Positions 41,716 through 64,000 of a stretch of DNA of 64,000 nucleotides are shown in pieces. Every line of letters starts with the position of its first letter. Position 1 is the first letter of the stretch. The notes under the pieces are model-generated. The model was not told where the DNA came from, did not search any database, and saw only the letters and a list, made by a program, of their open reading frames with translations. Origin of the DNA: Pontibacter fetidus (GTDB taxonomy: Bacteria > Bacteroidota > Bacteroidia > Cytophagales > Hymenobacteraceae). Where the stretch lies: positions 1-64,000 of the forward strand of contig NZ_JAAEAA010000013.1 of NCBI RefSeq assembly GCF_010119545.1, written 5' to 3'. Made by a program: the position numbers and the translations under genes.

Positions 41716-41728
41716 ACTATAGATTATA

Positions 41729-41763: not shown

Positions 41764-41780
41764 TTATGATCTATAGTTGC

Positions 41781-44217: not shown

Positions 44218-44247
44218 CGCGTTAAGCAATATTGTAAAACATATGAA

Positions 44248-44286: not shown

Positions 44287-44303
44287 CTTTTAACTGAACA
44301 ACT

Positions 44304-44864: not shown

Positions 44865-44902
44865 AAAGAGCCGCAACTATAAACTATAGCTGCGGCTTTT
44901 TT
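44863..44902. terminator. Bidirectional terminator with AACTATA-rich loop
   Basis: AGCCGCA (44869-44875) pairs with TGCGGCT (44891-44897), with flanking A and T runs. The loop is ACTATAAACTATAGC. It lies between the second DUF4142 gene and uvrA. Confidence 0.85.
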
Positions 44903-44917
44903 AGGTTGGCTTATACG

Positions 44918-47815: not shown

Positions 47816-47946
47816 TCAGGATGCGTTGATTTTAAATAGCAAAGGTATAAAATTGCCAGCGCTTTACGACAGTAAAACTCCAACCCTTCTTAACAGCAAA
47901 AGCAGCTAATTGGTTTAGCATTTGGTAACTTTCCTGTAGCTATGCT

Positions 47947-48336
47947 TTAATCGGCGTTGCCGTACCGGGAGGCTTCCTTTTCATGAATTATGGCGTGGTG
48001 GTGACTGGTTTGCACAAATTCGTCCCGCTGTTTTTTAATCAGACGTTGTTTCTGAAAGTACCGATAGAAACTATAGATAATGAGCCCGCCTCCTAATGCC
48101 AGCAATGTAAATCCTATTACCCCCATATACTTGTGCTCCGATAGTTTTATAGCTGCAATGCCGCCGGCTAACAGGGCAATGGAAGTGCGCAGATAAGCCA
48201 TTAAGGTACGCTCGTTGGCAAAAATAGTACGCTGCACCGCCATCTGATCCCGTATCTCAGTGTTCTTTTTCTCCTGTTGCTTCAGCTTCTTTTTAAGCTT
48301 TTTAATTTCTTCCTTTTCGGGGTCAGGTAGCATCAT
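47947..48336 (-). CDS. DUF202 (YidH-like) membrane protein
   Basis: 129 residues. A charged N-terminal coiled segment (EKEEIKKLKKKLKQQEKKNTEIRDQ) is followed by the DUF202 signature RTIFANERTLMAYLRTSIALL and two membrane segments (about 55-100). A His-containing tail (TSHHHAIIHEKE) follows. Inner membrane; function unknown. The paralogue begins upstream on the same strand, 31 bp away. Confidence 0.85.
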   Translation of the reverse strand: MMLPDPEKEEIKKLKKKLKQQEKKNTEIRDQMAVQRTIFANERTLMAYLRTSIALLAGGIAAIKLSEHKYMGVIGFTLLALGGGLIIYSFYRYFQKQRLIKKQRDEFVQTSHHHAIIHEKEASRYGNAD

Positions 48337-48367
48337 GGGTTGGTTTTTTTGATTTGTTGAGAGTAAG

Positions 48368-48781
48368 CTAAACTATAGAATTCGGGGAATTAGTGTCTGC
48401 TGTAGGGTCTGCTTTTTCCTGGGCGGCTACTTTTGCGTGTACCGGGCTGGTGGGCACATAGGTGCTGGTGTGGTGTTGTATGCGCTCCTGCTTTTTGCAA
48501 TAACGGCGGTAGCCAACTATGCCTATCGCTATCCCGATGGGAATAAACATTGCGCCCAGGCCTTTATAAACCGGGTCTTCAAAGAATTTAATAAAGGATA
48601 AACCTGCCAGCACCAACGCCATAGCCGTGCGACTATAAGCCAGCAGGGTACGTTCGTTGGCCAGTTCTGTGCGCTCCATGGCCAGTTGGTCGCGTACCTC
48701 AATGTTCTGCTTTTCCTGTACCTTCAGGTCTTTTTTTATCTCCTTGCGTTTCTTGCCGTTAAGTATACCTTTCCAGTTCAT
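48368..48781 (-). CDS. DUF202 (YidH-like) membrane protein, paralogue
   Basis: 137 residues from the ATG at 48781 (MNWKGILNGKKRKEIKKD). An ATG seven codons further upstream is possible but gives a Cys-containing extension absent from the neighbour. The DUF202 block is RTELANERTLLAYSRTAMAL, with two membrane segments after it. Its charged start (KEIKKDLKVQEKQNIEVRDQ) matches the neighbour, showing a tandem duplication. The last residues, Ser-Ile-Val-stop, are encoded by TCTATAGTTTAG, i.e. the CTATAG core again. Confidence 0.85.
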   Translation of the reverse strand: MNWKGILNGKKRKEIKKDLKVQEKQNIEVRDQLAMERTELANERTLLAYSRTAMALVLAGLSFIKFFEDPVYKGLGAMFIPIGIAIGIVGYRRYCKKQERIQHHTSTYVPTSPVHAKVAAQEKADPTADTNSPNSIV

Positions 48782-48820
48782 ACTGCAAGTATACGGTAGC
48801 AACTATACAGGGGATAAGGT

Positions 48821-51559
48821 CTATTGCAGTGCCTCGAGCCAGCCTTTGTAGCTGCGCCCTGTAGTTGGGTGCTGCAACAGGTAATAGAACATGCCAGTAG
48901 TGCCAGACCGTGGGGCCCAGTCATTTTTATAGTTTTTGATGCGTTGAATCTCTTTTCCCCAGCGGTTATACAGCACCAGTTCCCAGTCATCCTCTTTCAG
49001 GCCGTGTATAAAAAACACATCGTTCAGGCCATCGCCGTTCGGGGTAATAACGTTGGGTATAAACAGACCACCAATACAATCTTTGAACCTCACTGTGATC
49101 TCGTCATCGGCTTCGCAGTGCTGGTTAAAGGCTTTGAGTTTGTAGGTGCCCGGTTTAGTTACTTTAAAGAAGGCGTCGGTGCTGCCATCCTGCCATTCGT
49201 AACGAATATTGCCGGGCAGTTCAGTGCCAATTACCAGGGTGTCGCCGTAGCAAAGCGTGGTGTCGTTGCCTAAAGCTATCGCTGGCCTGGTCAGGTAAGG
49301 CAGCCAAATCTCATCGCGTACCACGCAGCCAAATTCATTGGTAACATCCACCCAATACTTTCCGGCCTCGGTTACTACAAATGTAGGGTTTGTTGAGCCA
49401 TCCTGCCACAGGTAAGTGGAATTAGGGAAGGTAGCAGTCAGTAATTTGGTGTCGCCGGAGCAAAGTGTTTCATCAGGGCCCAGGTTAACTATAGGTAGCG
49501 GTAAATGGTTAATGCGGATAATATCAGTAGCGCTACAGCCTTTGCTGCTGGTTAGGGTTACCCAATATTCGCCTGCAGTAGCTATAGTTATAGTTGGGGA
49601 AGTGGCTCCGGTGCTCCATTTATAGGTCATGCCGGGTTGGGTAGCATCCAGTGTTGTAGTGGTGTTGGCGCAAATGTCGCGGTCAGGGCCGAGGTTAACT
49701 ATAGGCAATGGGTTATAAACTATAGTTATCTCATCTGATTTTTTGCAACCGTCTTTGCTGGTAACTTCTACGCTGTATGTGCCTGCCTTGGTAACCGTAA
49801 AAGTAGAATTGGTAGAGCCATCCTGCCACAGATACGTAGCGCCTTCGTTAAAAGCATTTAGTTCTATCGTTTCTCCCTCGCACAATTCGCGGTTAGCACC
49901 CAGATTTACGGTCGGCAAACTATAGTTCGAGACTTTTACTTCGTCGCGGGTAGTGCATTCGGCTATAGTTACATCAACCCAGTAAGTGCCGGGTGTGGTA
50001 GTGGTTATGCTTGCCGAGGTGCTGCCGTTGCTCCATTTGTAGGTGGCATTTGGGGTGGTAGCATCCAGGGTTACTTCGGTGCCGGGGCAAACCCAGCGGT
50101 CGGGGCCAAGGTCAACTACAGGCGGTGCCAATATTTTTACAGTTATAGTATAGGTTTCCTGTTTGTTGCCGATGTGGCGGGTAAAGGTAACGGTATAGTT
50201 GCCGGGAGCACTGAAATGGTGGCTGGCATTTAGCGTGTTGGCCGTATTGGCTGCACCTGATGCCGGGTCTCCGAAGTTCCACTCCATAAAAGTGGGGTTA
50301 TCAGAAGTAGGGGCATCGAAAGCGAAATTGCTCGGCTCTCCAAAACAGTTAATATCAAAGCTGACATCGTAAGTATAAGTAAAGTTACTCTGGATAAAAG
50401 CTGGTAACCCCATCATGCTTTTTCTGCCTTCTAAATAAACTGCTGTGTCAATGTAAAGGCTGGCTGTACCTTTCTCATTTGGGTTACTGATAACACCCAA
50501 ATGCGCACTGGCTGGTCGTGCAAAGTATATTTTACCATCCGGGGCAAGCTGTAAACTGCCGCCTACAAAGTTGGTTGGCGGGTTGGTAGGGTCCAGGTTT
50601 GCCTGGCCTATCAGCGTTTTAGAAGCATTTATAGTTGCAAAATCATTTGAGCTGAGATCATACTGATAGATCTTGGTACCTGCATCTGTAGATACATAAA
50701 GCTTGGAGTTATCAGGAGAGAACTCTACACCATAAGGAGAACTGCCGGGGTTTAACGAACCTGCAAAAGGTGCTATCGGGAAGGGAATAATAGAAGAGTT
50801 TTCGTTATTAAACCCAAAAAGGCGAACCGTGTTTGTGGCCCTGTGCGTAACGGCCAGTTTTGTTCCATCCGGCGAAAATTTCATGCAGCCTATAGCATCG
50901 GTTGCCTCTGAAGCTGGCGGAAAAATTCCTCCTAATAAATTAAATTCGTTGGCCGGGCCTACACCACTACTGGTAACCAGAAAACTCCGGAAGGTGTGAG
51001 TGCCATGTTGATGTGACATTACCCAAATGTCGCGTTTGTTCTGTTGCAGTACAGCTGTCAGTTTTTCGGAAGTTGGTGTATAAAGTAACTTGTTTTTGTC
51101 AACAACATCGCCTCCGGGTTCTGTCATGTCAATAGTGGCGTAGCGCAACCCATTTCCCCTGCCAGTAGCATCCGTCGTGAACAGGTAGAAAAGTTTCTGG
51201 CTTCCAGGCTTTGGAACTATAATACAGGACTGAGCACTATTGGCGCTTCCCATTAATCCGGAGCCATTTCGCATTACCTGGTGCTGGTTATTCCAGACAG
51301 TGGTGCCATCCGTGTAAAAAAGAAGTTTGCCGTTGGCATCAGCTATACTTGCGGTTCCTTCAAAAGCATTCATGGCGCTGTTGGTGAGCACTGCCGGCGG
51401 GTTTACGTTAAAATCTAGCCCAGCCTTATCTCCGAAATACCAGACATGAGACGCCTTGTTACGCTGCGCCTGCACGCCGGAAAAGCTTCCCGAAACCAGA
51501 AAACAAACTAAAAACGCCGCTACTTTACTACAAACCGAAAGCTTACCCCCACAGGTCAT
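48821..51559 (-). CDS. Large surface protein with Ig-like repeats and T9SS type B sorting domain
   Basis: 912 residues. Signal peptide (...SGSFSGVQAQ), an N-terminal beta-propeller (about 35-395; VWYFGDKAGLDFNVNPPA opening, repeated FSPDGTKLAV-like blades), a PKD domain (about 400-480; MEWNFGDPASGA, then HHFSAPGNYTVTF), then five tandem Ig-like repeats of about 70 residues, each with [VI]-x-LG-[PA]-[DN]-x-x-[LI]-C, Y-x-W-x-[DN]-GST and AGTYWV-type strands. The C-terminus (FIPNVITPNGDGLNDVF...LYNRWGKEI) is the gliding-associated CTD that targets proteins to the cell surface through type IX secretion. Likely an adhesin. Confidence 0.92.
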   Translation of the reverse strand: MTCGGKLSVCSKVAAFLVCFLVSGSFSGVQAQRNKASHVWYFGDKAGLDFNVNPPAVLTNSAMNAFEGTASIADANGKLLFYTDGTTVWNNQHQVMRNGSGLMGSANSAQSCIIVPKPGSQKLFYLFTTDATGRGNGLRYATIDMTEPGGDVVDKNKLLYTPTSEKLTAVLQQNKRDIWVMSHQHGTHTFRSFLVTSSGVGPANEFNLLGGIFPPASEATDAIGCMKFSPDGTKLAVTHRATNTVRLFGFNNENSSIIPFPIAPFAGSLNPGSSPYGVEFSPDNSKLYVSTDAGTKIYQYDLSSNDFATINASKTLIGQANLDPTNPPTNFVGGSLQLAPDGKIYFARPASAHLGVISNPNEKGTASLYIDTAVYLEGRKSMMGLPAFIQSNFTYTYDVSFDINCFGEPSNFAFDAPTSDNPTFMEWNFGDPASGAANTANTLNASHHFSAPGNYTVTFTRHIGNKQETYTITVKILAPPVVDLGPDRWVCPGTEVTLDATTPNATYKWSNGSTSASITTTTPGTYWVDVTIAECTTRDEVKVSNYSLPTVNLGANRELCEGETIELNAFNEGATYLWQDGSTNSTFTVTKAGTYSVEVTSKDGCKKSDEITIVYNPLPIVNLGPDRDICANTTTTLDATQPGMTYKWSTGATSPTITIATAGEYWVTLTSSKGCSATDIIRINHLPLPIVNLGPDETLCSGDTKLLTATFPNSTYLWQDGSTNPTFVVTEAGKYWVDVTNEFGCVVRDEIWLPYLTRPAIALGNDTTLCYGDTLVIGTELPGNIRYEWQDGSTDAFFKVTKPGTYKLKAFNQHCEADDEITVRFKDCIGGLFIPNVITPNGDGLNDVFFIHGLKEDDWELVLYNRWGKEIQRIKNYKNDWAPRSGTTGMFYYLLQHPTTGRSYKGWLEALQ

Positions 51560-51674
51560 AATTTACCAAACTATAGTTAACCAGAATACTGTAAATATAG
51601 CTGATATAGGATGTTATAAGTATAGCCTTGTAAGAATATTTAGTAAACGGTATGTTATAGTTCAGAAAGCATAA

Positions 51675-51705
51675 AAAAAGCCTGCTGTGTTGGCAGCAGG
51701 CTTTT
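51675..51705 (-). terminator. Terminator after the LOG-family gene
   Basis: AAAAGCCTGCTG (51677-51688 region) pairs with CAGCAGGCTTTT (51694-51705), with a T-run on the minus strand. Confidence 0.88.
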
Positions 51706-51729
51706 GTAAGTATAGTAAAACTGTTTCTC

Positions 51730-52593
51730 TTAGAAGTTTGGAGAAAGCAGGTACTTGGCATAGAAGTCGTCGATGATCTTTACCGCTTCCGACGGATCGT
51801 CTACGATGTGTACCAGGTCCAGGTCTTCGGCGCTGATGTTGCTTTCCATTTTCAGCATTACATCTTCTACCCACTGCATCAAACCTTCCCAGTACGAGCG
51901 GCCAACCAGCACGATCGGGAATGCACCGATCTTCTTTGTCTGGATAAGCGTGATCGCTTCAAATAACTCATCAAGTGTACCGAAACCGCCTGGCATTACC
52001 ACAAAGCCCTGTGCATACTTCACAAACATTACCTTGCGCACAAAGAAGTAATCAAAGTTGATCAGCTTATCAGAGTCGATGTAAATGTTGTTGAACTGCT
52101 CGAATGGCAACTGGATGTTCAGACCCACTGACTTACCGCCTTCAGAGTGCGCACCTTTGTTACCGGCTTCCATAATGCCCGGGCCACCGCCTGTAATTAC
52201 CCCATAACCATGGCGCACCAGCTTGGCAGCAATTTCCTCAGCCATTATGTAGTATTTGTTGTCGGCTTTGGTTCTCGCCGATCCGAAGATAGAAACGCAT
52301 GGACCGATTTTGGCCATCTTTTCGAAACCATCCACGAACTCAGCCATTACTTTAAATATCTGCCACGAGTCGGCTATTTTGATCTCGTTCCAGTTTTTGT
52401 CTACAAACGCCTTACGAATGCGGATATCTTCTTCAGAGGCAGGAGGGGCAGTTACCTGGCCGCTTTCGCGCAGGTCAGTTACCGATCTTACTTTGTTGTC
52501 GTTAGCATCGGGGTTAAGTATAGTTTGCCCGCTACCAGTGTTAAGCGCCTCGTCGTGGAGCTTTGTTTTGCTTGTCTTTCTAAGCTTTGTCAT
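51730..52593 (-). CDS. LOG-family Rossmann protein (cytokinin riboside monophosphate phosphoribohydrolase-like)
   Basis: 287 residues. After a 60-residue polar N-terminal extension comes the lysine decarboxylase-like/LOG fold with both signatures: GGGPGIMEAGNKGA and PGGFGTLDELFE. LOG enzymes hydrolyse the N-glycosidic bond of nucleoside monophosphates; the older label lysine decarboxylase is incorrect for this family. The physiological role in Bacteroidota is unclear. A well-formed promoter lies 83 bp upstream and a terminator follows. Confidence 0.9.
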   Translation of the reverse strand: MTKLRKTSKTKLHDEALNTGSGQTILNPDANDNKVRSVTDLRESGQVTAPPASEEDIRIRKAFVDKNWNEIKIADSWQIFKVMAEFVDGFEKMAKIGPCVSIFGSARTKADNKYYIMAEEIAAKLVRHGYGVITGGGPGIMEAGNKGAHSEGGKSVGLNIQLPFEQFNNIYIDSDKLINFDYFFVRKVMFVKYAQGFVVMPGGFGTLDELFEAITLIQTKKIGAFPIVLVGRSYWEGLMQWVEDVMLKMESNISAEDLDLVHIVDDPSEAVKIIDDFYAKYLLSPNF

Positions 52594-52675
52594 AATATAT
52601 TAAATCATCTTCTCGGCAGGACAATAGTACCCTGCGGCGCTTTTAATCAGGCGCCTTTCATCAAAAAATTAATCG

Positions 52676-52707
52676 CAAAAATACAGGCTGTGAGGGCGCG
52701 CTGCAAA
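52676..52707 (-). promoter_or_regulatory. Promoter of the LOG-family gene
   Basis: On the minus strand TTTG (52707-52704), a 20-bp spacer and TATTTTTG (52683-52676) match the Bacteroidota consensus. Confidence 0.6.
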
Positions 52708-52726
52708 ATGCGGGTTGTAAGTTACT

Positions 52727-53974
52727 TTATTTAGAGCGGATTGCAATAACCGGGTCAAGATTTGACGCCAGCACGGCCGGGATTATACCTGAAAGCATAC
52801 CAATCACCGCGGATACGCCAAGGCCCAGCACAATGTTACCTATCGACAGGCTAATTTTCATCATGTCCTGCGGGATGATGGTGATCAGGAACACCAAAAA
52901 GATGCCTATGCCACCACCTAACACGCTCAGGAACACCGACTCGAACAAAAACTGGAAAAGGATAAAATAGTTTTTAGCCCCCAGTGATTTTTGTATACCT
53001 ATAATGTTGGTTCGCTCTTTAACCGACACAAACATAATGTTGGCAATACCGAAGCCGCCTACCAATATAGCAAACCCACCAATTACCCAGCCAGCCAGGC
53101 CAACCACATCAAAAAAGCCTGATATAGATTGTGTTACCATTTCGGGGCGGTTTATGGCAAAGCTGTCATCGTCGCGGGGGCGCTGGCCACGTATGTTGCG
53201 CATCATGCCGCGCACTTCATACTCCAGTTCCTGCAGGCCTTCATCCTCCGGGCGGCCTTTAATGGCAATGGCATTGCCTACGCCATCGGGCCCGGTATCA
53301 TACATTTTGCTGAAGGAGCCAAATGGTATAATGCCCATCTGGTCGAAGTTGGGCATACCAAACATGCTTTCGCCCTGTTTCTCTATCACCCCGATCACCC
53401 TAAACCGCTGACCGCCAACTTTTACTTCCTGGCCTACCGCGCTTATGTTCGGGAAAAGGGCATCAGCAATTTCTTTGCCTATCACTACTACATTGCGGGA
53501 GGCATCAACCTCCTGTGGTACAAAATAACGGCCTTCTTCAATCGGTATCTCGCTTACTTTGTTGTAGTCATAGGTTACACCCATTAGCATGGCGCCGGTA
53601 AAGCTGTTGCTTTGGAATTTAAAAGTACTGCCGCTTTTATCTGCAAACAGGGCCACACCTGCATCGTTGGCCAAGTTGCGATCCAGTAAACGGAACTCGC
53701 GCACCGTGGGCTCCGGTCGCTGAAAATATTTCCACCACGGGTAGCTACCACCAAAGCTCCAGGGCCATTTCTGCACATATAAAACTTTATCGCCAATAAA
53801 GCTCATGCTGTCGCGCACGTTACGCTCTAGCGAATCTACCAGCGTAAAAACTGATATTATGGCGAAAATACCAATGGTTACGCCCAGCAGCGAGAGCAGT
53901 GTACGGAGCATATTGGCACGTAGGGCCTGCCAGGCAAATCGTATACTTTCCGCAATCAGACGCAGGTATATCAT
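52727..53974 (-). CDS. MacB/FtsX-type ABC transporter permease
   Basis: 415 residues from the ATG at 53974 (MIYLRLIAESIRFAWQALRA); a longer in-frame start adds 18 hydrophobic residues before the usual family start. One N-terminal membrane helix (MLRTLLSLLGVTIGIFAIISV), a periplasmic MacB_PCD domain (about 50-270) and three C-terminal helices with NIMFVSVKERTNIIGIQKSLGA, the FtsX signature. Such permeases pair with an ATPase to export lipoproteins, peptides or drugs, or to transmit force to cell-wall enzymes. No ATPase or adaptor gene is adjacent. Confidence 0.9.
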   Translation of the reverse strand: MIYLRLIAESIRFAWQALRANMLRTLLSLLGVTIGIFAIISVFTLVDSLERNVRDSMSFIGDKVLYVQKWPWSFGGSYPWWKYFQRPEPTVREFRLLDRNLANDAGVALFADKSGSTFKFQSNSFTGAMLMGVTYDYNKVSEIPIEEGRYFVPQEVDASRNVVVIGKEIADALFPNISAVGQEVKVGGQRFRVIGVIEKQGESMFGMPNFDQMGIIPFGSFSKMYDTGPDGVGNAIAIKGRPEDEGLQELEYEVRGMMRNIRGQRPRDDDSFAINRPEMVTQSISGFFDVVGLAGWVIGGFAILVGGFGIANIMFVSVKERTNIIGIQKSLGAKNYFILFQFLFESVFLSVLGGGIGIFLVFLITIIPQDMMKISLSIGNIVLGLGVSAVIGMLSGIIPAVLASNLDPVIAIRSK

Positions 53975-54156
53975 CGGTTTTGTGGTTATATAAAGTAATT
54001 TTTTTAAAAGTAAGAATATTTCGGTCAAACTGAGTAAATTTGCGGCTCGTTTTTTTGTTTATTGCCGGGTTAATTTTCCGAACTCCTGAAAGCAACTTCA
54101 AGTTATAGTTAAAGTCTTTTCACCATTTGGAATCCAAATACCGTAATATTTGATCT

Positions 54157-55203
54157 ATGAAATTATCAGAATTTAAGTTTGATCTGCCGGAAGAGCTCCT
54201 GGCTACGCACCCAACCGAAAACCGCGATGAGTCGCGCATGATGGTACTGCACCGCGATACAGGTAAGATCGAGCACCGTATTTTTAAAGATATACTGGAG
54301 TATTTTGACGACGGCGACGTGATGGTTGTGAATGATACCAAAGTGTTTCCGGCCCGCCTTTACGGCAACAAAGAGAAAACCGGCGCTAAAATAGAGGTTT
54401 TCCTGCTGCGCGAACTGAACAAAGATATTCATTTGTGGGATGTGCTGGTTGACCCGGCGCGTAAGATACGTGTAGGCAACAAACTATACTTTGGCGAAAG
54501 CGACCTGGTAGCGGAAGTTATTGATAACACGACATCGCGTGGCCGAACTATAAAATTCCTGTTTGACGGCACAGACGAAGAGTTTTACAAAACTATTAAC
54601 GACCTGGGCGAAACGCCGCTGCCACGCTATATTAAGCGCGAAGCTGAGCCGGAAGACCGTGAGCGTTACCAGACTGTGTATGCCAAAAACGTAGGTGCCG
54701 TAGCTGCGCCAACTGCCGGCCTGCACTTTACCAGAGAAGTACTGAAGCGCCTGGAGATAAAAGGGGTAGATATAGCGCCTCTTACGCTACACGTTGGGTT
54801 GGGTACATTCCGCCCGGTTGATGTGGAAGACCTGACCAAGCACAAAATGGACTCTGAGAACTTTAGTGTTCCTGCTGAAACATCGGATATGGTGAACAAG
54901 GCGTTGGATAACAAGAAGCGTGTTTGTGCTATAGGTACAACTACCATGCGTGCACTGGAGTCTTCGGTATCGGCGAGCAACCGCCTGAAGCCAAACGAAG
55001 GCTGGACAGACCGTTTCATCTTCCCTCCATACGATTTCAAGATAGCGAACGCACTGGTTACCAACTTCCATATGCCGGAAAGCACCCTGCTGATGATGAC
55101 AGCTGCTTTTGGGGGTTACGAACTGGTAATGAAAGCCTATGAAGAAGCCGTAAAAGAGAAATACCGTTTCTTCAGCTACGGCGACGTAATGCTGATTTTG
55201 TAA
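54157..55203 (+). CDS. queA: S-adenosylmethionine:tRNA ribosyltransferase-isomerase
   Basis: 348 residues. The start [63 protein letters not shown] and FITNFHxPESTLLM-type block ([20 protein letters not shown]) are all diagnostic of QueA. It transfers the ribosyl part of SAM to 7-aminomethyl-7-deazaguanine in tRNA, forming epoxyqueuosine. A TAAATTTG box (54035-54042) lies 115 bp upstream, and a strong terminator follows. Other queuosine genes are not in the window. Confidence 0.96.
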
Positions 55204-55225
55204 GGATAAGCTGCTTATAAAGTAT

Positions 55226-55258
55226 AAAAAGCCCCGACTGCAAAGTCGGGGCTTTTTT
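55226..55258 (+). terminator. Terminator after queA
   Basis: AGCCCCGACT (55230-55239) pairs with AGTCGGGGCT (55244-55253), followed by TTTTTT. Confidence 0.92.
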
Positions 55259-55389
55259 ATTGCGGATCGTTGAATTGTTGGATCAGCTATAGTTAAGACG
55301 CAAAGTATTGCGTCTCTACATCTTCTAATTTTTCTAACTCATCCATCTTTAACTCCTAAACTCTTTAATTCCTAAACTATAAATCTTTT

Positions 55390-55397
55390 TAACTTTG
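55390..55397 (+). promoter_or_regulatory. -7 box just before ispD
   Basis: TAACTTTG matches TAnnTTTG and ends 6 bp before the ATG at 55404, so the message would be nearly leaderless. No clear -33 element. Confidence 0.35.
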
Positions 55398-55403
55398 CTC
55401 CTT

Positions 55404-56087
55404 ATGGCGCAAGAACTCCCAGAATATGCGATTATAGTTGCCGGCGGCTCGGGCAGCCGGATGCAGCACGATACTCCTAAGCAGTTTATACCTGTAGCTG
55501 GAAAGCCGATACTAATGCATACGATAGAACGCTTTTACAACTATAGCCCAACTATACGGCTGATTGTGGTATTGCCTAAAGAACAGCTGGAAACCTGGCG
55601 TGAGTTGTGTAAAACGTACAGCTTTACTATTTTCCATATGACGGTGCCGGGTGGTGCTTCGCGCTTCGAGTCTGTGAAAAATGGCTTAGGTGCTGTAATG
55701 GGAAATGGTTTGGTAGCCGTGCATGATGGCGTTCGCCCGTTTGTGGAGGTTGAAACTATAAAAGCTGCTTTTGAGGCCGCTGCAAACTATGGCAGTGGCG
55801 TGGTAGTGGTATCACCAAAGGATTCTATTCGCGAACTGATTTCGAAAGGAAGTATATCTGTGCCGCGTGCCAACTATAAACTGGTACAAACCCCGCAGGT
55901 ATTTACAGCAGAAATTCTTAAAAAAGCCTACGAGCAGCACGACCAGGGTTACTTTACCGACGATGCCTCGGTAGTAGAAAGTATAGGCGAGAAAATTACA
56001 TTGGTAGAAGGCAGCTACCGCAATATAAAAATCACAACTCCCGAAGATCTGATATTAGCTGAAGCTTTTGCCAAAGAACAACTATAG
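55404..56087 (+). CDS. ispD: 2-C-methyl-D-erythritol 4-phosphate cytidylyltransferase
   Basis: 227 residues from the ATG at 55404; a TTG three codons upstream lies in the promoter box and is rejected. Nucleotide-binding motif VAGGSGSRMQHDTPKQFIPVAGKPILMHTIE, VAVHDGVRPFV and the end ITTPEDLILAEAF are family signatures. It forms CDP-methylerythritol in the non-mevalonate isoprenoid pathway. The last codons are CAA CTA TAG; the CTATAG (56082-56087) is read on the other strand as the last codons of the convergent ABC ATPase gene. Confidence 0.96.
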   Translation: MAQELPEYAIIVAGGSGSRMQHDTPKQFIPVAGKPILMHTIERFYNYSPTIRLIVVLPKEQLETWRELCKTYSFTIFHMTVPGGASRFESVKNGLGAVMGNGLVAVHDGVRPFVEVETIKAAFEAAANYGSGVVVVSPKDSIRELISKGSISVPRANYKLVQTPQVFTAEILKKAYEQHDQGYFTDDASVVESIGEKITLVEGSYRNIKITTPEDLILAEAFAKEQL

Positions 56088-56813
56088 TATAACTGGTCGG
56101 CCAGCTTCCAAAAAAGCCTGGTTCTCTAAAACAGTATCCGGGGAGATAACCTCTAATATTGGTTCTGGCTTAGAAAGGTTTAACAAGTAGCCTTCCATCG
56201 TCGTCAGGTTGTGCAGGTCGTGTGTAATACAAAGCACAGTTTTCTGATTTTCGTGTACCCAGCTTTGCAGCAGCTTAAATACCTTGTTCTTATAGTATAC
56301 ATCCAGTTGCTGCGTGGGCTCATCCAGCAGGTTTATAGCTGCGTCCTGCAGCATCAATTGCGCCAACCATACCAACTGTTGTTCCCCGCCTGAAAGGGTT
56401 GTAAAGTCGTGGTCCTGCAGGTGGGTGAGTTGTAGTTGCGCCAGTACCTGAGCGGCGGTATCGTAATCCTGGGTAGTGTAATCTTCAAAAAAGCGCTTCT
56501 TCCGGAACAGGCCCATTACCACCAGGTCTAGCACTTTTATAGAGAAAGAAACTGTATTGCGTTGCGGCAGGTAAGAAAGTATGCCTTGCTTGGTGGCCAG
56601 CGGCAGGGTTTTAAGGTCGTGGCCTTTTATATGCAGTTGTCCCTGGTAAGCTACCTTTTGCTGAAAGGTTTTGAAGAAGGTGGTTTTGCCCGCACCGTTG
56701 TGGCCGATGATGGCGACAAACGTTGGGGCAGGTATAGAAAAAGAAAGGTTGCGGATAAGAGTACGCGACTCATAACCCGCAACCAGATTTTTTACTTCAA
56801 CGATGTTATTCAA
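56082..56813 (-). CDS. ABC transporter ATP-binding protein, FepC/HmuV-like
   Basis: 243 residues. Walker A GHNGAGKTT (about 37-45), Q-loop YLPQRN, signature LSGGEQQLVWLAQLM, Walker B INLLDEPTQQLD and switch His in CITHDLHNL. The sequence most resembles ATPases that power iron-siderophore, haem or B12 importers (family FecCD). No permease or binding-protein gene is adjacent, so its partners must be elsewhere. It ends ATA CTA TAG, sharing the six bases of its Leu-stop with ispD. Confidence 0.88.
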   Translation of the reverse strand: MNNIVEVKNLVAGYESRTLIRNLSFSIPAPTFVAIIGHNGAGKTTFFKTFQQKVAYQGQLHIKGHDLKTLPLATKQGILSYLPQRNTVSFSIKVLDLVVMGLFRKKRFFEDYTTQDYDTAAQVLAQLQLTHLQDHDFTTLSGGEQQLVWLAQLMLQDAAINLLDEPTQQLDVYYKNKVFKLLQSWVHENQKTVLCITHDLHNLTTMEGYLLNLSKPEPILEVISPDTVLENQAFLEAGRPVIL

Positions 56814-56900
56814 TGATTAATTACTAATGATGAATGAATAATGAGTAAGCTTTAAAGCTATTGGCAATTATTCATTATTCATTACCAATTATTCATTATT
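56812..56900. repeat. AT-rich inverted-repeat element (ATTCATTATTCAT type)
   Basis: ATGATGAATGAATAATGA (56827-56844) is answered by repeated ATTATTCATTATTCATT (from about 56870) and ATTATTCATTATTAAT (56888-56903), similar to 38044-38189. It fills the gap between two minus-strand genes. Confidence 0.5.
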
Positions 56901-57120
56901 AATATTCGTCTTCGTTAAACATGAAGTCTTCCTTGGTAGGATAGTCAGGCCAGATCTCTTCGATGTTCTCGTAAGGCTGTCCGTCATCTTCAAGGGCCTG
57001 CAGGTTTTCTACTACCTCCATAGGTGCTCCAGAGCGAATTGAGTAATCAATTAACTCATCTTTAGTTGCTGGCCAGGGTGCGTCCTCCAGGTATGATGCT
57101 AATTCAAGTGTCCAGTACAT
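56899..57120 (-). CDS. Small acidic DUF2795 protein
   Basis: 73 residues, no signal or membrane segment. TKDELIDYSIRSGAPMEVVENLQALEDDGQPY is the DUF2795 core (helix, Gly-Ala, helix, L-x-x-L), and WPDYPTKEDFMFNEDEY is a strongly acidic tail. Cytoplasmic, function unknown. A CAAAAGTA on the plus strand (57167-57174), i.e. a TAnnTTTG-type box on the minus strand, lies 47 bp upstream. Confidence 0.8.
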   Translation of the reverse strand: MYWTLELASYLEDAPWPATKDELIDYSIRSGAPMEVVENLQALEDDGQPYENIEEIWPDYPTKEDFMFNEDEY

Positions 57121-57346
57121 AGTATGTGTCTCCTTAACTAATTGTTGGCTATTTTAGATTGGTTTGCAAAAGTATAAATAAATATAAAAACAAAAATTTA
57201 TACTTTAAAAAATTGCTTTTTTATTTGTTTTTAACAACACAACGCAAAACGTATACAAATGTTCAGGATGAAGTGCTAAAATTTAAAATGCAGGCATAAA
57301 TTAGTAACAAAAGCTGTACGGCTACCTATAAAAGCGCTTTGGCAAC

Positions 57347-57373
57347 AAAAAAGCCTGCGCGTGGCAGGCTTTA
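57347..57373 (-). terminator. Terminator after the DUF349 gene
   Basis: AAGCCTGC (57351-57358) pairs with GCAGGCTT (57364-57371), with a T-run on the minus strand. A CTATAG lies just outside. Confidence 0.85.
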
Positions 57374-57392
57374 AAGTATAGCTATAGTTTGG

Positions 57393-58712
57393 TTAAGCGT
57401 TGTTGCTATAAGCCCCCAACTTCTCTTTAAACCCTTCTATCAGTTGCTGTTTGGTGTTTATCTTCCGCTTAAAGTTACGGATCTTACCCTGCAGCATACT
57501 ACGGAAGGTGTCGTTGCTTGGCGAGTCGCTCAGTTTATCCAGGTTATCTTCCAGCACTTCCAGCTCGCTTTTATCTGATTTTATAAAATCCTTCAGCGCG
57601 TTGATGCGGGCATTAAGGCCATCTGCTTCGCTTAGCTTTTCGTTGCTGGCCTGCTGGCGTTTTCGGATGTAGTGCTCCAGGCTGCTGGTTTCAAATATCC
57701 GGTCGCAGGCTTTTATAAACTGTTCCCACACCTGGTCTGATACAGACGGATGCACCGGGCCTACTTTTTTCCATTCGGCCTGCAGTTCCTTGGCGCGACG
57801 TACGGCATCGTTCAGGTTATGCTGCTCCAGCAAACCGTTGGCTTCGTCTACCAGCTGCTTTTTCTTTTCGTAGTTAGTGTCGTAAAACTGCTCGCGCGAT
57901 GCATTCTTTTCGCTGTTAATCTTCACCTTCAGGCGCTCAAAAAAGTGGTTATGCGCTTTACGGAAGTCAGTCCATAGTTTGCTGGTAACTTTGCGCGGCA
58001 GGCTGCTGTCTATGTCTTTCCACTGGTTCTGCAATTGCTTTAGCTTGGCTGTTGTGTTTTCCCAGTCGTCGGAGTTCTGCAGCGCTATCGATTGCCTGAT
58101 CAGGTCTTTATACTTGTCGTATGCGTGGTTCTGCATACGCTTCTTGTCTTCAAAGAAGTTCTTTTTGCGCTCAAAAAACGCCTCTATCGGGGCTTTAAAG
58201 CGTTCCTCAATTTCTTCGGTCAGTTCCTTGTCTACAGGGCCGGTCTTTATCCAGGTGGCGCGCAGTTCTTTTAGTTGGTCCGATGCTTCTTTCCATTCAA
58301 TACTCTCCTGCAGTGCTTCGGCCTGTTGTATCAGCCCTATTTTAATGGCCAGGTTCTTCTCCCGGTTCTGCTTTATCGTTTCGTTAATGTTTTCTTCGGC
58401 CTTACTCAGGGTATGAAACATTACTTCAAAATCGCCAAGGGCATCGTACTCGCCCACCTGCTCTTTCATATGAAGCACTTTCATCAGAAAAGACCCCTTG
58501 TTCTCAGATGACGCAATTCGCTCCAACAGGGAGTTCACTTTTTCACGGAACATTTCAAAACGTCTCGCAAAGTATACTAAGGAGTCGTTCTCAGATTCTT
58601 TTACATCGCCAACCTGGCGGGCAGGGTAGTTCATGAAGGGTTTCAGCCACACCTGCTGGTCCTGAATAAAGCCATATTTCTTGGCTTCTTCCAATAGATC
58701 GTTGTTTTCCAT
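57393..58712 (-). CDS. DUF349 repeat protein
   Basis: 439 residues, almost wholly helical and rich in K/E/Q. At least four DUF349 units of about 70 residues are visible, each with W-[K/R]-x-x-G-x-V-type spacing: LRATWIKTGPVDKELTEEIEERF, LQNQWKDIDSSLPRKVTSKLWTDF, LQAEWKKVGPVHPSVSDQVWEQF, and a degenerate first unit. A C-terminal coiled coil (SELEVLEDNLDKLSD) follows. Cytoplasmic, role unknown in Bacteroidota. It is divergent from ettA with 335 bp between the start codons, a gap in which I see no gene. Confidence 0.9.
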   Translation of the reverse strand: MENNDLLEEAKKYGFIQDQQVWLKPFMNYPARQVGDVKESENDSLVYFARRFEMFREKVNSLLERIASSENKGSFLMKVLHMKEQVGEYDALGDFEVMFHTLSKAEENINETIKQNREKNLAIKIGLIQQAEALQESIEWKEASDQLKELRATWIKTGPVDKELTEEIEERFKAPIEAFFERKKNFFEDKKRMQNHAYDKYKDLIRQSIALQNSDDWENTTAKLKQLQNQWKDIDSSLPRKVTSKLWTDFRKAHNHFFERLKVKINSEKNASREQFYDTNYEKKKQLVDEANGLLEQHNLNDAVRRAKELQAEWKKVGPVHPSVSDQVWEQFIKACDRIFETSSLEHYIRKRQQASNEKLSEADGLNARINALKDFIKSDKSELEVLEDNLDKLSDSPSNDTFRSMLQGKIRNFKRKINTKQQLIEGFKEKLGAYSNNA

Positions 58713-59047
58713 TTGACTGGATCGGGTTTTGCGTCAAAAAATAGGGTAAGGCACTTTTTAAACTAACTTTAGCATACGCAGCTTTAACTTAAGCGTTATA
58801 TGAGCGCATCCGTAAAACAGATGGCACAAACAGTTTGCAGGCGAAGCTGGTTGCAAAGCAAGTATAAGTATACTAAACCCAACAGTATTTTACAAGTTTA
58901 ACGATTTCGTGGCAATATTCTGAGGGGTAAATGCATGAAATTTTACGATATTTGTATTTAATCTGAAAACGAAAACGATGGCAGCCTGCTGTTTGAAAAA
59001 GCAGATTTGCCACTTTCCGGAACGTATAAACCTGACAGAACGATAGC

Positions 59048-60718
59048 ATGAGCAACGAAAAGATCATTTTCTCGATGGCCGGGGTAAGTAAAGTTTACCC
59101 TCCGCAAAAACAAGTACTTAAAAATATTTACCTCTCTTTTTTCTATGGCGCTAAAATTGGCGTGCTGGGTCTTAACGGTTCTGGTAAGTCTAGCTTGCTG
59201 AAGATAATTGCAGGAGTTGATAAGCAGATACAGGGCGAAGTAGTCTGGAGCCCGGGTTACACAGTAGGTTACCTGGAGCAGGAACCGCAACTGGACCCAA
59301 CCAAAACTGTGCGCGAAGTGGTGGAAGAAGGCGTAAGCGAAGTGGTGGCTTTGTTGAAGGAATTTGACGAGATCAACATGAAGTTTGGCGAAGAGATGAC
59401 TGACGATGAGATGAATAAGCTTATCGAGCGCCAGGGTGTAGTGCAGGAAAAACTGGACCACCACAACGCCTGGGAACTGGACAACCGCCTGGAGCGCGCC
59501 ATGGACGCCTTAAGAACGCCGCCTGAAGATGCTATAATCGGTAACCTGAGTGGTGGTGAGAAGCGCCGTGTAGCACTATGCCGTTTGCTATTGCAGGAGC
59601 CCGATGTACTGTTACTGGATGAGCCTACCAACCACCTGGATGCTGAATCAGTAGACTGGCTGGAGCAGCACTTAAAGCAGTATAAAGGTACCGTAATTGC
59701 CGTAACCCACGACCGTTACTTCCTGGATAATGTGGCTGGCTGGATACTGGAACTGGACCGTGGCGAAGGTATTCCGTGGAAAGGTAACTATAGCAGCTGG
59801 CTAGAACAGAAATCTAACCGTCTGGCACAGGAAGAAAAGACCGAAAGCAAGCGTCAGAAAACATTACAGCGCGAGTTGGAGTGGGTTAAGATGGCGCCCA
59901 AAGCACGCCATGCCAAGTCTAAAGCGCGTATCAGCCAGTATGATAAACTAGCCGGCGAAGATGCCAAACAGAAAGAAGATAAACTGGAGCTATTTATTCC
60001 GGACGGCCCGCGTCTGGGTGCTCAGGTTATCGATGCGCACAACATCAGCAAAGCTTATGGTGATAAATTACTGTTCGAGAACCTGAACTTCTCGCTGCCG
60101 CAAGGTGGTATAGTTGGTATCATTGGTCCAAACGGTGCTGGTAAAACTACTTTGTTTAAACTGATAACAGGCCAGGAGAAACCAGATGCCGGTGACTTTA
60201 CAGTGGGCTCTACAGTGCAGATTTCGTATGTAGACCAGGAGCATGCCCAGCTTGACCCTAATAAATCTGTATTCGAGGTGATATCGGGTGGTACGGAGCA
60301 CATGATGATGGCTGGACGCCAGGTAGTTTCCCGGGCTTATGTAAGCAAATTTAACTTTACGGGAGGCGACCAGGAAAAGAAAGTAGCCAACCTGTCGGGT
60401 GGTGAGCGAAACCGTGTGCACCTGGCTATGACGCTGAAAGAAGGCGGAAACTTGCTGCTACTCGATGAGCCAACCAACGACCTGGACGTGAACGCGATCC
60501 GTGCGCTGGAAGATGCCCTGGAGAACTTTGCAGGTTGCGCTGTAATCATCTCACACGACCGTTGGTTCCTTGACCGTATCTGTACGCACATCCTGGCCTT
60601 TGAAGGCGACTCGCAGGTTTGCTGGTTTGAAGGTAACTACACCGATTACGAAGAGAACAAGAAGAAGCGCATGGGCGATGTTGAGCCAAAGCGTATCCGT
60701 TATAAGAAGCTGGTATAA
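59048..60718 (+). CDS. ettA: Energy-dependent translational throttle protein EttA (ABC-F)
   Basis: 556 residues, the usual EttA length. Two ABC domains: Walker [10 protein letters not shown] and GPNGAGKTT; signatures [17 protein letters not shown] and [17 protein letters not shown]; Walker [12 protein letters not shown] and [11 protein letters not shown]. Between them is the arm/linker with [21 protein letters not shown]. The start [19 protein letters not shown] fits the family. EttA binds the ribosomal E site and gates the first translation step according to energy level. Ends in a strong terminator. Confidence 0.96.
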
Positions 60719-60738
60719 AACAGTTTTATATACTTTAT

Positions 60739-60777
60739 AAAAAAGGCTTGTTGCAGATTTTGCAGCAAGCCTTTTTC
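60739..60777 (+). terminator. Terminator after ettA
   Basis: AAAAGGCTTGTTGCA pairs with TGCAGCAAGCCTTTT with one G-U, followed by TTTTT. Confidence 0.92.
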
Positions 60778-60998
60778 TTTTTCATCGCCTGAGATCAAGC
60801 CAATTAAATGAATTCTTATTTAACCTGAGCAACTATAAAAAAAGCTGTTTTTAGGTCTTAAATTGAATTTTTTAAATTAAATATTGTTTGTTTTTGGGTT
60901 ATTTTATCTTGTGTTAACAAATCGGTAACAACGCTCGTAGCCTATAATACAAAGACAGCCAAAGGGATAAATCAGTGTTTAACGATTAAAGGTTGTTT

Positions 60999-61097
60999 AT
61001 GATGAAAAATGTTTACCACAATCAAGATGAGTTAGCTTACTGGATCATTGCAGGATACTTCGCAGTTGTTGGAGTAGTGGCAATGCTGGTTTCTTAA
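60999..61097 (+). CDS. 32-residue single-span membrane peptide
   Basis: ATG ATG at 60999/61002 opens a 32-codon frame ending TAA at 61095-61097, directly followed by a perfect 13-bp terminator hairpin (61121-61152). The peptide has a polar start (MMKNVYHNQDELAYW) and a hydrophobic run IIAGYFAVVGVVAMLVS, i.e. one membrane segment with the N-terminus polar. The 280-bp leader before it is AT-rich and gene-free. The tight terminator and clean hydrophobic pattern support a real gene; no known family is recognised. Confidence 0.6.
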   Translation: MMKNVYHNQDELAYWIIAGYFAVVGVVAMLVS

Positions 61098-61120
61098 GTT
61101 AATCGTTCCTTAACGGAAAC

Positions 61121-61152
61121 ACAAAAGCCGCACCCGTAAGTGCGGCTTTTGT
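61121..61152. terminator. Bidirectional terminator, small peptide / serine hydrolase
   Basis: Perfect 13-bp stem ACAAAAGCCGCAC (61121-61133) / GTGCGGCTTTTGT (61140-61152). Confidence 0.92.
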
Positions 61153-61179
61153 GTTTATAGTTACCTGTAAGGTTATTAG

Positions 61180-62751
61180 TTACTTTACACGCTCAAACTT
61201 CAGCTCATCAAAGTGGAAATCCGGGTTGTCAGAATCTATGCGCATCTGGCTTATAGTTCCGTCCGGGCCAACTAAGAACCGCACTTTTGTAGGTGTCAGC
61301 AATGCGAAATCGTTTTTCCAGTCCAGGTCAAAAATATCGTGCTGCCAGTGGGTAAGCGTACCTCCTAATGCCTGCGCTGGTACCAACTGTAGATCCAGTT
61401 TGCCGTCTTTTATAGTTACAGTAGCATTACCGTATAGCTGGCTGTAGTAGGTGCCCGTATAAGCGCTCAGGTCCATGGTTGGTTTGCTTTTGCGCTTTTT
61501 CTCTTTCGGGGCTTTGGCTTGCGTTTCGGCTTGTGCTTTTTTCGCTTTTGCCATCATATCCAACGTAACCTGGCTCCAGTCTTTGCCATGCTGCACACCA
61601 AAAAACTGGTCTAAGGTATAGTTGGCAATCGGTGTCATAATGCTGCTCATGCTGTTAGTCAATATCACGATGCCCAGTTTCTCTTCAGGAGCCAGTACGG
61701 TACGGCTGTTCATGCCCTCGTGTCCGCCACCATGGTATACCAGTTTGCGGCCTTCGTAATCGCTCACAAACCAACCCAGGCCTGCTGCACTAAAGTGGGT
61801 AGAAGGCATAAACTCTTCAGAGCCTTTAGACACAGGCATGGGGTTGTGGGCCTGCCACATATGGCGGCTGGCATTTTCGCTGAAAATCTTTTTGCCGTTA
61901 TAGGTACCGCGGTTCAGTTGCAGGCGCATCCACTGGGCCTGCTGGGTTACGCTGGTAAAAATGCCGGCAGCCGGATTCCAGTTGTCCCAGGCGGTAAGGA
62001 TGGTAGCTACTGGTTTACCCTCTTTATCAAAACCGTGCGGTGAAGCTACATTCTGCACCCCTTTCAGGTCGTTTACCGAAGTATAAGAACGGGTCATGCC
62101 CAGTGGCTGGAAGAAGGTTTCTTTTATATAGTTTTCCCAGGTCTTGCCAGTTACATTTTCAATCACTTCACCAGCGGTTATAAACATCAGGTTAGAGTAG
62201 CCATAACCATCCCGGAAACCATAATCGGGCTCCAGGTACTGCATTCTCCGGATAATTTCTTCGCGGCTATAGTTGGTGTTGTACCAAAGCAGGTCGCCGC
62301 CAAATGTTCTAAGCCCTGCACGGTGGCTTAGTAAGTCTTCTATAGTCAGGTTTTCGGTAACGTATGGCGAATACATTTTCAGGTATGGGATGTACTTATT
62401 TACCTTGTCTGTCCATTTTATTTTGCCAGCATCAACTAGGGTTGCCAGCGCAGCCGAAGTATAGGCTTTGGAGTTAGACGCGATTCCGAAAAGTGTATTG
62501 GCATCTACTTGCCCGCCTGTTTTGTTGTTAAGTACGCCATAGCCTTTGGCAAATATTACTGAGTCGTTTTTAACGATAGCAATAGCCATTCCCGGCACAT
62601 CCCAGTCTTTTAAAGCTTTTTGGTAGTAAGCATCGAGTTTGGCTATAGTTGCGGCATTATTGTTTTTCTGAGCCAGGGCAGGCTGCAATATAAAGCACAG
62701 CAACAGGCTCAGTAGCAGGAAACTTCTGCGCAAAGTAGTCAGGTTGTTCAT
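61180..62751 (-). CDS. Serine hydrolase, class C beta-lactamase/penicillin-binding fold
   Basis: 523 residues. Signal peptide (...FILQPALAQ), then the beta-lactamase class C fold (about 35-385) with Ser92-x-x-Lys95 (ASNSKAYTS), a Tyr-x-Asn-like YGYSNLMF and HGGGHEGM in place of KTG. A Lys/Ala-rich linker (KKAQAETQAKAPKEKKRKSK) leads to a C-terminal DUF3471-like beta domain (YTGTYYSQLYGNATVTIKDG). Such proteins are often esterases or D-amino-acid peptidases rather than resistance enzymes. Substrate unknown. Confidence 0.9.
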   Translation of the reverse strand: MNNLTTLRRSFLLLSLLLCFILQPALAQKNNNAATIAKLDAYYQKALKDWDVPGMAIAIVKNDSVIFAKGYGVLNNKTGGQVDANTLFGIASNSKAYTSAALATLVDAGKIKWTDKVNKYIPYLKMYSPYVTENLTIEDLLSHRAGLRTFGGDLLWYNTNYSREEIIRRMQYLEPDYGFRDGYGYSNLMFITAGEVIENVTGKTWENYIKETFFQPLGMTRSYTSVNDLKGVQNVASPHGFDKEGKPVATILTAWDNWNPAAGIFTSVTQQAQWMRLQLNRGTYNGKKIFSENASRHMWQAHNPMPVSKGSEEFMPSTHFSAAGLGWFVSDYEGRKLVYHGGGHEGMNSRTVLAPEEKLGIVILTNSMSSIMTPIANYTLDQFFGVQHGKDWSQVTLDMMAKAKKAQAETQAKAPKEKKRKSKPTMDLSAYTGTYYSQLYGNATVTIKDGKLDLQLVPAQALGGTLTHWQHDIFDLDWKNDFALLTPTKVRFLVGPDGTISQMRIDSDNPDFHFDELKFERVK

Positions 62752-62879
62752 AAGGTTTAATAGTATTTTTAAGGTGTAGCAATATAGGGTTTTTTAGATT
62801 GTAAGGGAAATCAGGGGTAGTGTCATTTTGAGGGTAGTGAGATCTGTTTTTTTATGAACTAGCAATGTGTCCAGCTTTT

Positions 62880-63525
62880 GCTAGAGCCTAATACTATAGT
62901 TGAACATTTGTCATTTCGACGCAAGGAGAAATCTGTACCAGCTTTTAGTTAATTATAGTTGCATCTTGAGCCAAGCTATACTTTCAAATTTCCTCTAATC
63001 CTGGGAGCTTTACCTACCCATCGTTTCAAATGAGCTTTGGTGCCCTCACGGCCGGGAGGCCCCGTCTTCGGGCATCGCGCTGCTGCCTTCTTGCTATCCT
63101 CGTTCCTCGGATTGGCTCACGCCACCGCAACAAGTCAAAGGCGCTCAACCCAAAGACTGCTATCTTTCTATTATGTTCCTCTGTCTATAGTTTGATAGTA
63201 TAAGCTTCGAGATTGATCGTGGGTATAGTTTCGTAGGAACAGGTCGCGACCTGTCCGCCTCATGGACTATAACTATGAATCTATACAGTCAACTATAATT
63301 ATAGCCAAAAAATCCCCTCTTGAGAGGGGCAGGGGTGTGTTATAGCAAAGGCTTCACGCATCTCGTCACAAGATCCTTCCAGGATGACAAATAAAGTAGT
63401 AGTAGCAGTAAAAACTCCCTCTCCTGTATTGGGGGTAGGAACCCTCTTCAAAAGGAGAGGGCTGGGGTGAGGTTAAATCCTGCTAATCCATTAATCCTGC
63501 AAATCCTGATTCAGACAAGCTTACT
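62880..63525. repeat. Mosaic intergenic repeat, copy R5
   Basis: No gene is seen in 62752-63525. The order is GTCATTTCGACGCAAGGAG; CTTTCAAATTTCC...CTCACGGCCGGGAGGCC; CTCAACCCAAAGACTGC; a one-base variant of the 20-bp palindrome (about 63237-63256); CCCCTCTTGAGAGGGG with GTGTGTTATAG; ACAAGATCCTTCCAGGATGA; a CTCCCTCTCCTGTATTGGGG...GGAGAGGGCTGGGG hairpin; and the tail CAAATCCTGATTCAGACAAG. Very close to R1, including the ATCGCGCTGCTGCCTTCTTG inner part. Confidence 0.85.
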
Positions 63526-64000
63526 CTAATTCCCTTCCTCTCTTGGTTTGTGCGGGCCGGTTTCGTAGTCTTTTTTCTCCATTTCCAGGCGGTGCAGTTC
63601 TTCGGGGGTAAGGGAAGTGGCGAGTGTGCCTAAATTTGGTTGTCCGGCATCTACCCAGGCGGTATACCAAAAGCTGGCAACGGTTTGTATCGCTAAGCGC
63701 ATTTGCCGCTCTACCTGGCCGTTCAGCTTTTTACTATAGGCTTCCGAAAATTCGCGGGAGTAAACACGGGTGGTCAGGTTATTTCGCAGTTCAAAGCCGT
63801 ATTTTTTCTCCTCATCAAAAGCTATAGTTAACTGGCGCTCAAAACTCAGCACAGAATCAAGGGCTATGTGGGCGCTGGCAACCAGGTCCCAGGCCCGCAG
63901 CTGCGGATTAGTAATGTACTGTGCAGGACCTACAAAAAAGTCATAGTTATCTGAAAACAGTTCCGGCAACCGCGACTCCCAGAAGCCATGTATCCCGCGC
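63526..64000 (-). CDS. Zinc-dependent phospholipase C-like protein, C-terminal part (cut by window edge)
   Basis: At least 158 codons, open to base 64000, so the start is outside. The frame continues upstream of an apparent TTG/Leu as RGIHGFWESRLPELF, which I recognise as part of a Bacteroidota family annotated zinc dependent phospholipase C (S1/P1 nuclease-like helical fold), where His and Glu of HGFWES would bind metal. The rest is helical (AHIALDSVLSFERQLTIAFDE...RQMRLAIQTVASFWYTAWVDAG). The C-terminal tail is charged. The assignment is from memory of the family block, and most of the active site is outside the window. Confidence 0.55.
   Translation of the reverse strand, partial: RGIHGFWESRLPELFSDNYDFFVGPAQYITNPQLRAWDLVASAHIALDSVLSFERQLTIAFDEEKKYGFELRNNLTTRVYSREFSEAYSKKLNGQVERQMRLAIQTVASFWYTAWVDAGQPNLGTLATSLTPEELHRLEMEKKDYETGPHKPREEGN

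Follow-up and report, generated by a model that had tools for sequence, protein, structure and literature searches.

Most sampled genomes of the genus Pontibacter carry thousands of copies of a short, asymmetric iterated word that exists in three spellings, or dialects, and this genus-wide word with its dialects is firmly supported. The word family is A-R-S-TATA-V, and the octamer AACTATAG of Pontibacter fetidus is its local dialect. In the window, the whole stretch of 64,000 nt of P. fetidus DNA analysed here, one copy supplies the stop codons of two convergent genes, ispD and a gene for an ABC transporter ATPase. This shared double stop is incidental, a by-product of one spelling-in of an octamer that is iterated throughout the genome. 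As the best of several inferences, we infer that the word is an uptake sequence: a trans-acting reader of the word, most likely the uptake receptor of a pilus-independent transformation system, may spread and keep the dialects of the genus, a reading that comes close to being probable but stays a little short of it.

The abundance of the word is far above chance. The window holds 130 copies of the hexamer CTATAG, already described as an iterated word in the first-pass annotation, whereas 100 dinucleotide shuffles give 16.4 (sd 3.7). The full octamer AACTATAG is present 130 times against 2.4 expected from base composition. The excess extends genome-wide: the 4.07-Mb P. fetidus genome contains 6288 copies, 3140 on one strand and 3148 on the other, compared with 154 copies of the reversed control. 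This corresponds to one copy per about 650 bp, or about 1540 per Mb. Within 464 kb of P. fetidus sequence, 729 copies were counted, with 18.9, 18.2, and 80.0 expected under Markov models of order 1, 2, and 3, respectively. Dispersed repeats hold 164 of 830 P. fetidus words, and masking them alters little. They were rejected as the source of the word, as the unique, repeat-masked part still contains 665 words against 20.4 expected.

Two other features of the window concern its repeats and its short palindromes. Dispersed intergenic repeats are found at positions 2386, 17304, 39508, and 63239, and at 2463, 17377, 34432, and 63314. They contain two palindromes, around GGTCGCGACC and CTCTTGAGAG, and lie near several AACTATAG copies; 13 and 3–4 further copies, respectively, are present in 400 kb of P. 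fetidus sequence. Among seven relatives, each represented by one 20-kb piece, the GGTCGCGACC repeat has a single copy in two, and the CTCTTGAGAG repeat is absent from all. By contrast with CTATAG, the tetramer CTAG is strongly avoided in the window, with 36 copies against 248 expected from composition.

Table 1. Features of the window and of the ispD/ABC ATPase junction.
Feature	Position	Strand	Remarks
Window as sample	1..64000	59 on +, 71 on -	130 AACTATAG, about 2 per kb
AACTATAG in queA-ispD gap	55287..55294	-	Reads CTATAGTT on +
ispD	55404..56087	+	Pfam IspD, 3.5e-51
AACTATAG within ispD	55539..55546	+	AAGTATAA at this place in the consensus of up to 11 other-dialect or word-poor genomes; re-spelled in place
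AACTATAG copy, dialect A	56080..56087	+	Spans the ispD stop
CTATAG hexamer	56082..56087	both	Leu codon and stop of both convergent genes
ABC transporter ATPase gene	56082..56813	-	Pfam ABC_tran, 4.7e-26

The two genes overlap exactly by their tails. ispD, which starts at the ATG at 55404 (the ORF list has a TTG at 55395 instead) and is 70–81% identical to the ispD genes of named Pontibacter, ends in CAA-CTA-TAG, with 56087 as its last base. The minus-strand ABC ATPase ORF, read from 56813 down to 56082, ends in ATA-CTA-TAG. The initial observation that a single CTATAG provides both stops is thus correct, and the 6-bp overlap is real. Misannotation, which had been considered, was ruled out by the same 6-bp overlap in five other Pontibacter genomes (G002, G003, G006, G016, and G046), three of which (G003, G016, and G046) have CTATAG itself. 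The survey covered 35 genomes of the genus, and the ABC gene is convergent within 800 bp of ispD in 34 of them; five named loci, three of which duplicate genomes of the set, were kept out of the count. The stop-to-stop distance is -6 bp at six of the 34 junctions (G000, G002, G003, G006, G016, and G046), and CTATAG is found at four (G000, G003, G016, and G046). The other junctions show a 4-bp overlap (7/34), abutting genes (2/34), or a gap of 13–746 bp (19/34, the value for G054 being doubtful). The alignment behind the ispD-only tree misplaced or read through the ispD ends of G024, G048, and G054; the junction survey sets the stops of G024 and G048 earlier, and the end of G054 is doubtful. 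The 6-bp tail overlap is thus no misannotation, but it is not a constant of the junction either.

The further proposal that the word acts as a built-in double stop did not hold. CTATAG is the shared double stop of only one of 54 convergent pairs in the 464 kb of P. fetidus sequence, as judged with crude gene calls (greedy longest ORFs, without a trained caller). Nine of 265 P. fetidus genes end in CTATAG, genes being taken here as ORFs of 150 aa or longer from 20 pieces outside the window. Two of the four genomes with CTATAG at the homologous junction, G003 and G016, belong to dialect AGGTATAG, whose iterated word does not contain CTATAG. Moreover, roughly half of all copies of AACTATAG lie entirely within coding sequence (375/729, in both orientations). 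A double-stop function was therefore rejected on the counts of 1/54 pairs and 4/34 junctions.

Across 50 genomes of the genus, three spellings of the word are found: A (AACTATAG), B (AAGTATAA), and C (AGGTATAG). TATA is invariant in all of them, the preceding AAC, AAG, or AGG sets the dialect, and the following base avoids T. Most one-letter neighbours of AACTATAG are near chance, except those with G as the second or third base, or with A or C as the last. At a threshold of 2,000 copies of one dialect word, 39 of the 50 genomes count as word-rich: four have A only, three have A and B (G000, G046, and G061), 20 have B, and 12 have C, which leaves 11 with none. The highest counts reach 7030 for AAGTATAA and 5222 for AGGTATAG. 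In the word-poor genomes, ARSTATAR shows an excess of up to about 3.6-fold (G007), with G041, G056, and G057 near the control. It is near or below the control in the 150 genomes sampled from five sister genera, with a highest value of about 1.4-fold (G086).

The dialects are largely clade-wise and near exclusive, with a few mixed genomes. On a tree of three genes (queA, ispD, and the ABC gene) from 35 of the 50 genomes, all ten sampled C genomes form one clade with a support of 1.00, and all seven A or A+B genomes form another, also with a support of 1.00, beside the B genomes. G016, a C genome, falls outside the other C genomes on the ispD-only tree and inside them on the three-gene tree. Dialect B is less tidy: G063 (B) groups with the word-poor G007 and G002 with a support of 0.60, and the word-poor G024 and G057 are placed among B genomes, which looks like a loss of the word.

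Word sites are retained above background within a dialect and rarely outside it, where some are re-spelled in place. Of the 329 P. fetidus sites aligned with four other A genomes, 179 are retained, about twice the background of 24–29% for other 8-mers. In the comparison with eleven genomes that are B, C, or word-poor, retention falls to 3 of 200 sites, compared with 13–17% for other 8-mers. The mixed genomes lie about or below background, with 18/108 sites in G046 (background 26%), 15/62 in G061 (23%), and 8/42 in G063 (19%). At another 14 of the 108 sites, G046 shows AAGTATAG or AAGTATAA in place. Re-spelling between dialects exceeds that of control 8-mers. At unique P. fetidus sites, AAGTATAR stands at 5/66 in B genomes against 97/6636 for controls (p 0.003), and AGGTATAR at 2/23 in C genomes against 5/792 (p 0.009), statistics that come from few sites (five and two) treated as independent. 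Conversely, at 124 places of the B word (AAGTATAA/AAGTATAG) in B genomes, P. fetidus has AACTATAG/AACTATAA at 12 and the B word at 28.

The gain of words was followed against an outgroup consensus, taken as a proxy for the ancestor, at the 22 of 262 own-contig sites with enough outgroups; one of the 22 already reads AACTATAG in the consensus. The 50 changes required at the remaining 21 sites cover 11 of the 12 substitution types and divide into 24 transitions and 26 transversions. No single mutational rule therefore makes the word, and a single mutational or repair signature was rejected, even though one change, G>A, is the commonest (16/50). At word codons, the amino acid is the same as in B genomes at a fraction of 0.64, against 0.82 for other codons. 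This divergence fits drive, and equally fits tolerance.

A coherent account can be proposed for these patterns, together with the asymmetry of the word, its preference for intergenic and convergent 3'-end positions, and its scarcity in foreign-looking DNA, all described below. A trans-acting factor would read the whole word and favour DNA that carries it, and words would thereby spread and be kept. The factor would most likely be a sequence-specific uptake receptor, working with ComEC and outer-membrane proteins independently of a pilus, as in Riemerella. Recombination would then fix word-bearing alleles, a form of molecular drive, and drift in the specificity of the receptor could give rise to new dialects. 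Convergent gene ends may simply be permissive, such that a word could end up as stop codons there. That Pontibacter possesses pilus-independent, sequence-specific DNA uptake with its own evolving dialects AACTATAG, AAGTATAA, and AGGTATAG, and with a receptor that is not a type IV pilin, is a tentative proposal, possible rather than probable.

The pilus or type II secretion ATPase (PF00437) was scored on up to 31 candidates per genome. In the 50 genomes, only fragments of it were found, within positions 107–196 of 370 and mostly ending at 176; three of them are just above the cut-off, compared with controls that matched in 14 of 14 cases, 13 above the cut-off. A ComP-type pilin receptor is therefore not expected. 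ComEC (PF03772) is present in all 50 genomes. Because these include all the word-poor ones, ComEC does not explain the presence or absence of the word. Nothing receptor-like was seen in 10 of the 19 listed ORFs neighbouring the ComEC gene of P. fetidus. ComEC is interrupted by an in-frame stop in two word-rich genomes, G009 (G009:C76; still 5041 C words) and G022 (G022:C1; 2537 B words); these are either natural test cases for the loss of uptake or assembly errors.

Several known systems resemble the one proposed here. In Riemerella anatipestifer, of the same phylum as Pontibacter, transformation requires ComEC, DprA, ComF, and RecA, together with four proteins that have no homologues in known machinery; one operon encodes two of these, a surface and an outer-membrane protein. 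In the accessible part of this report, no pilus gene is among the essential ones, and one essential surface protein is fimbrial by predicted location (PMC8459023). R. columbina prefers its own DNA. Unlike in Pontibacter, no iterated word is established for Riemerella in the accessible sections of that study, which tabulates A-rich k-mers and leaves their role open (PMC7965970).

The DNA uptake sequences (DUS) of Neisseriaceae offer a closer parallel in the word itself (Frye et al. 2013). They too are present in thousands of copies, and their dialects share a fixed core (CTG in that family, TATA here) and differ in one to a few of the surrounding bases. Two dialects coexist in S. muelleri, as they do in G046 and G061, and word-free genomes occur inside both groups. 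DUS copies are intergenic and linked to terminators, according to the available text, and Pontibacter words are likewise in excess at 3' ends (PMC3630211). The differences are that Pontibacter belongs to Bacteroidota, that it shows only PF00437 fragments, and that uptake is a putative function here. Uptake enhancing sequences of Pasteurellaceae and Neisseria are also non-palindromic, without orientation bias, and in excess in non-coding DNA, and molecular drive has been proposed for their accumulation. That paper, as far as its accessible part goes, describes no bias towards the downstream side of genes for those sequences, a different word in another phylum, unlike Pontibacter words, which are densest at convergent ends (PMC1939737). 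The receptor of Pasteurellaceae is a predicted minor pilin (PMC12616744).

The open-licence literature searched yielded no report of AACTATAG, nothing pertinent on CTATAG as a palindrome, and no report of highly iterated palindromes in Bacteroidetes, although an earlier report is possible, and no relevant report of natural transformation with an uptake sequence, or of an uptake system of the proposed kind, in Bacteroidetes or Bacteroidota. For Pontibacter, it yielded no transformation data and nothing on overrepresented words, natural transformation, or uptake, including in the accessible part of PMC4460873.

An intracellular factor could also read the word. A site for recombination, repair, nucleoid organization, or self-recognition, Chi-like or other and without any role in uptake, is unlikely, even though retention within a dialect and re-spelling in place require just a factor that reads sequence. 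The depletion of words in foreign-looking DNA would likewise suit a self-mark. Two P. fetidus contig ends of low GC and foreign appearance (L114 and L128) have 3 words per 20 kb against 31 expected, a tenfold reduction. Among the 10 ORFs scanned from both pieces, L114 encodes glycosyltransferases and Wzt, and L128 encodes Rep3, ParA, and RHS. L128 (C17:1-20000) is a plasmid-like contig end with a GC content of 0.36 and ORFs of up to 2067 aa; its RHS match, in an ORF of 1134 aa, is weak. The rRNA operon of G048 contains no word against 8.3 expected, which is weak evidence, rRNA being constrained anyway.

Chi and KOPS sites are strand-polarised. Unlike these, the Pontibacter word shows no strand polarity beyond a mild local heterogeneity, which speaks against a Chi- or KOPS-like site. 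Most 20-kb pieces of P. fetidus are near even, the largest skew of the 8-mer being 8:16 (L123). For the 7-mer, the largest skews are 17:37 and 47:25, and the heterogeneity over 22 pieces is mild (chi-square 37.2, 21 d.f., p 0.016). No link between the 7-mer skew and GC skew was visible in ten pieces of G054 and G048.

Another possibility, improbable in our judgement, is that the word is an epiphenomenon comparable to HIP1 of cyanobacteria. According to the model of Elhai (2015), sites would accumulate because a methyltransferase marks their core, through methyl-directed repair or some process linked to it. The scale of enrichment is the same, 500–2500 copies per Mb in cyanobacteria and about 1540 here, and HIP1 is replaced by other words, the alternate HIPs, in some cyanobacteria, which recalls the alternation of dialects between Pontibacter species (PMC4390886, as far as its accessible part goes). 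The TATA core of the word is itself palindromic, with variable flanks. However, the HIPs are palindromes tied to methyltransferases (PMC4390886), unlike the Pontibacter words, which are asymmetric and tracked by none of the methyltransferase families tested. The asymmetry follows from the counts of palindromes made of two half-words, which are near independence in dialect A (312 observed, 261 expected) and fall below expectation in B (30 against 105) and C (16 against 44). The A palindrome AACTATAGTT, with 130 sites in 464 kb, is only 1.2 times the independent expectation. It was rejected as a functional unit, two independent half-words being sufficient to explain its count, and the palindromic appearance of CTATAG is a peculiarity of this dialect. 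As for the methyltransferases, the three families searched, PF01555, PF02086, and PF00145, are patchy, occurring in 31, 13, and 23 of the 50 genomes, respectively. None of the three has a match in the word-rich G014, G022, G023, G043, and G052, which have 2,537–6,609 B words. A type I or Eco57I-like enzyme (PF02384 or PF07669) is a further candidate.

The position of the shared stop might instead point to a 3'-end signal, for termination or RNA processing at convergent ends, of which a shared stop would be a natural product. In unique P. fetidus DNA, with repeats masked, the density of words is 3.54/kb in noncoding and 0.99/kb in coding sequence, a 3.6-fold difference. Convergent gaps are the densest (6.10/kb), followed by tandem (3.65/kb) and divergent gaps (3.39/kb). 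The first 25 bp past stops, with repeats unmasked, are enriched as well, at 8.8/kb in P. fetidus and 11.9/kb in the B group, and less so in the C group (3.7/kb, from 6 words). The pools for these values comprised 12 (B) and 6 (C) pieces of 20 kb; in one C piece (L168, from G062), the C word is not enriched, though the genome of G062 has 4084 copies. Against such a signal stand the 410 words in unique coding sequence, the intragenic copies in both orientations, and the words of divergent gaps, and we regard it as quite improbable. As convergent gaps are rich in words, a word could come to supply the stop codons of a convergent junction. A promoter element was rejected too, divergent gaps being the poorest intergenic class. 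Finally, an origin from biased codon or amino-acid usage, or from base composition by itself, suggested by the 273 of 375 coding words that place the Ile codon ATA (37% of P. fetidus Ile codons), is refuted as sole cause and retains next to no likelihood, given that the word is denser outside genes, that the order-3 Markov expectation falls far below the observed count, that most one-letter neighbours are rare, and that the sister genera show no excess.

Neisseriaceae and Pasteurellaceae, in which uptake proceeds via pili, are known to possess iterated words with clade-specific dialects, as are cyanobacteria, where the function of HIP1 is open. Pontibacter provides a further independent case, from Bacteroidota, in which the word is separated from the pilus and from the tested methyltransferases. 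With 50 species, three spellings, mixed intermediates, and word-free relatives, the genus makes the origin of such words open to experiment. The dialect word in donor DNA is also a lead for Pontibacter genetics.

Local repeats and other words were observed in some genomes. In G020, a piece (L270, G020:C1:1942001-1949000) contains from its position 2080 onward a CRISPR-like array whose repeats, about 30 bp long, are spaced at 64–72 bp and number 74 copies as counted by an octamer inside the repeat. The AGGTATAG count of G020 is inflated because the CRISPR-like repeats displayed contain AGGTATAG. In 20 kb of the word-poor G057 (G057:C1:1-20000, L155), ATATATAA and TATATATA are in excess, which could reflect a local repeat or another word. 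In G059, where the dialect words are low, GGTATAAA is found in 11 copies in one piece (G059:C1:1-20000, L160), a 34-fold excess, and may be a fourth spelling.
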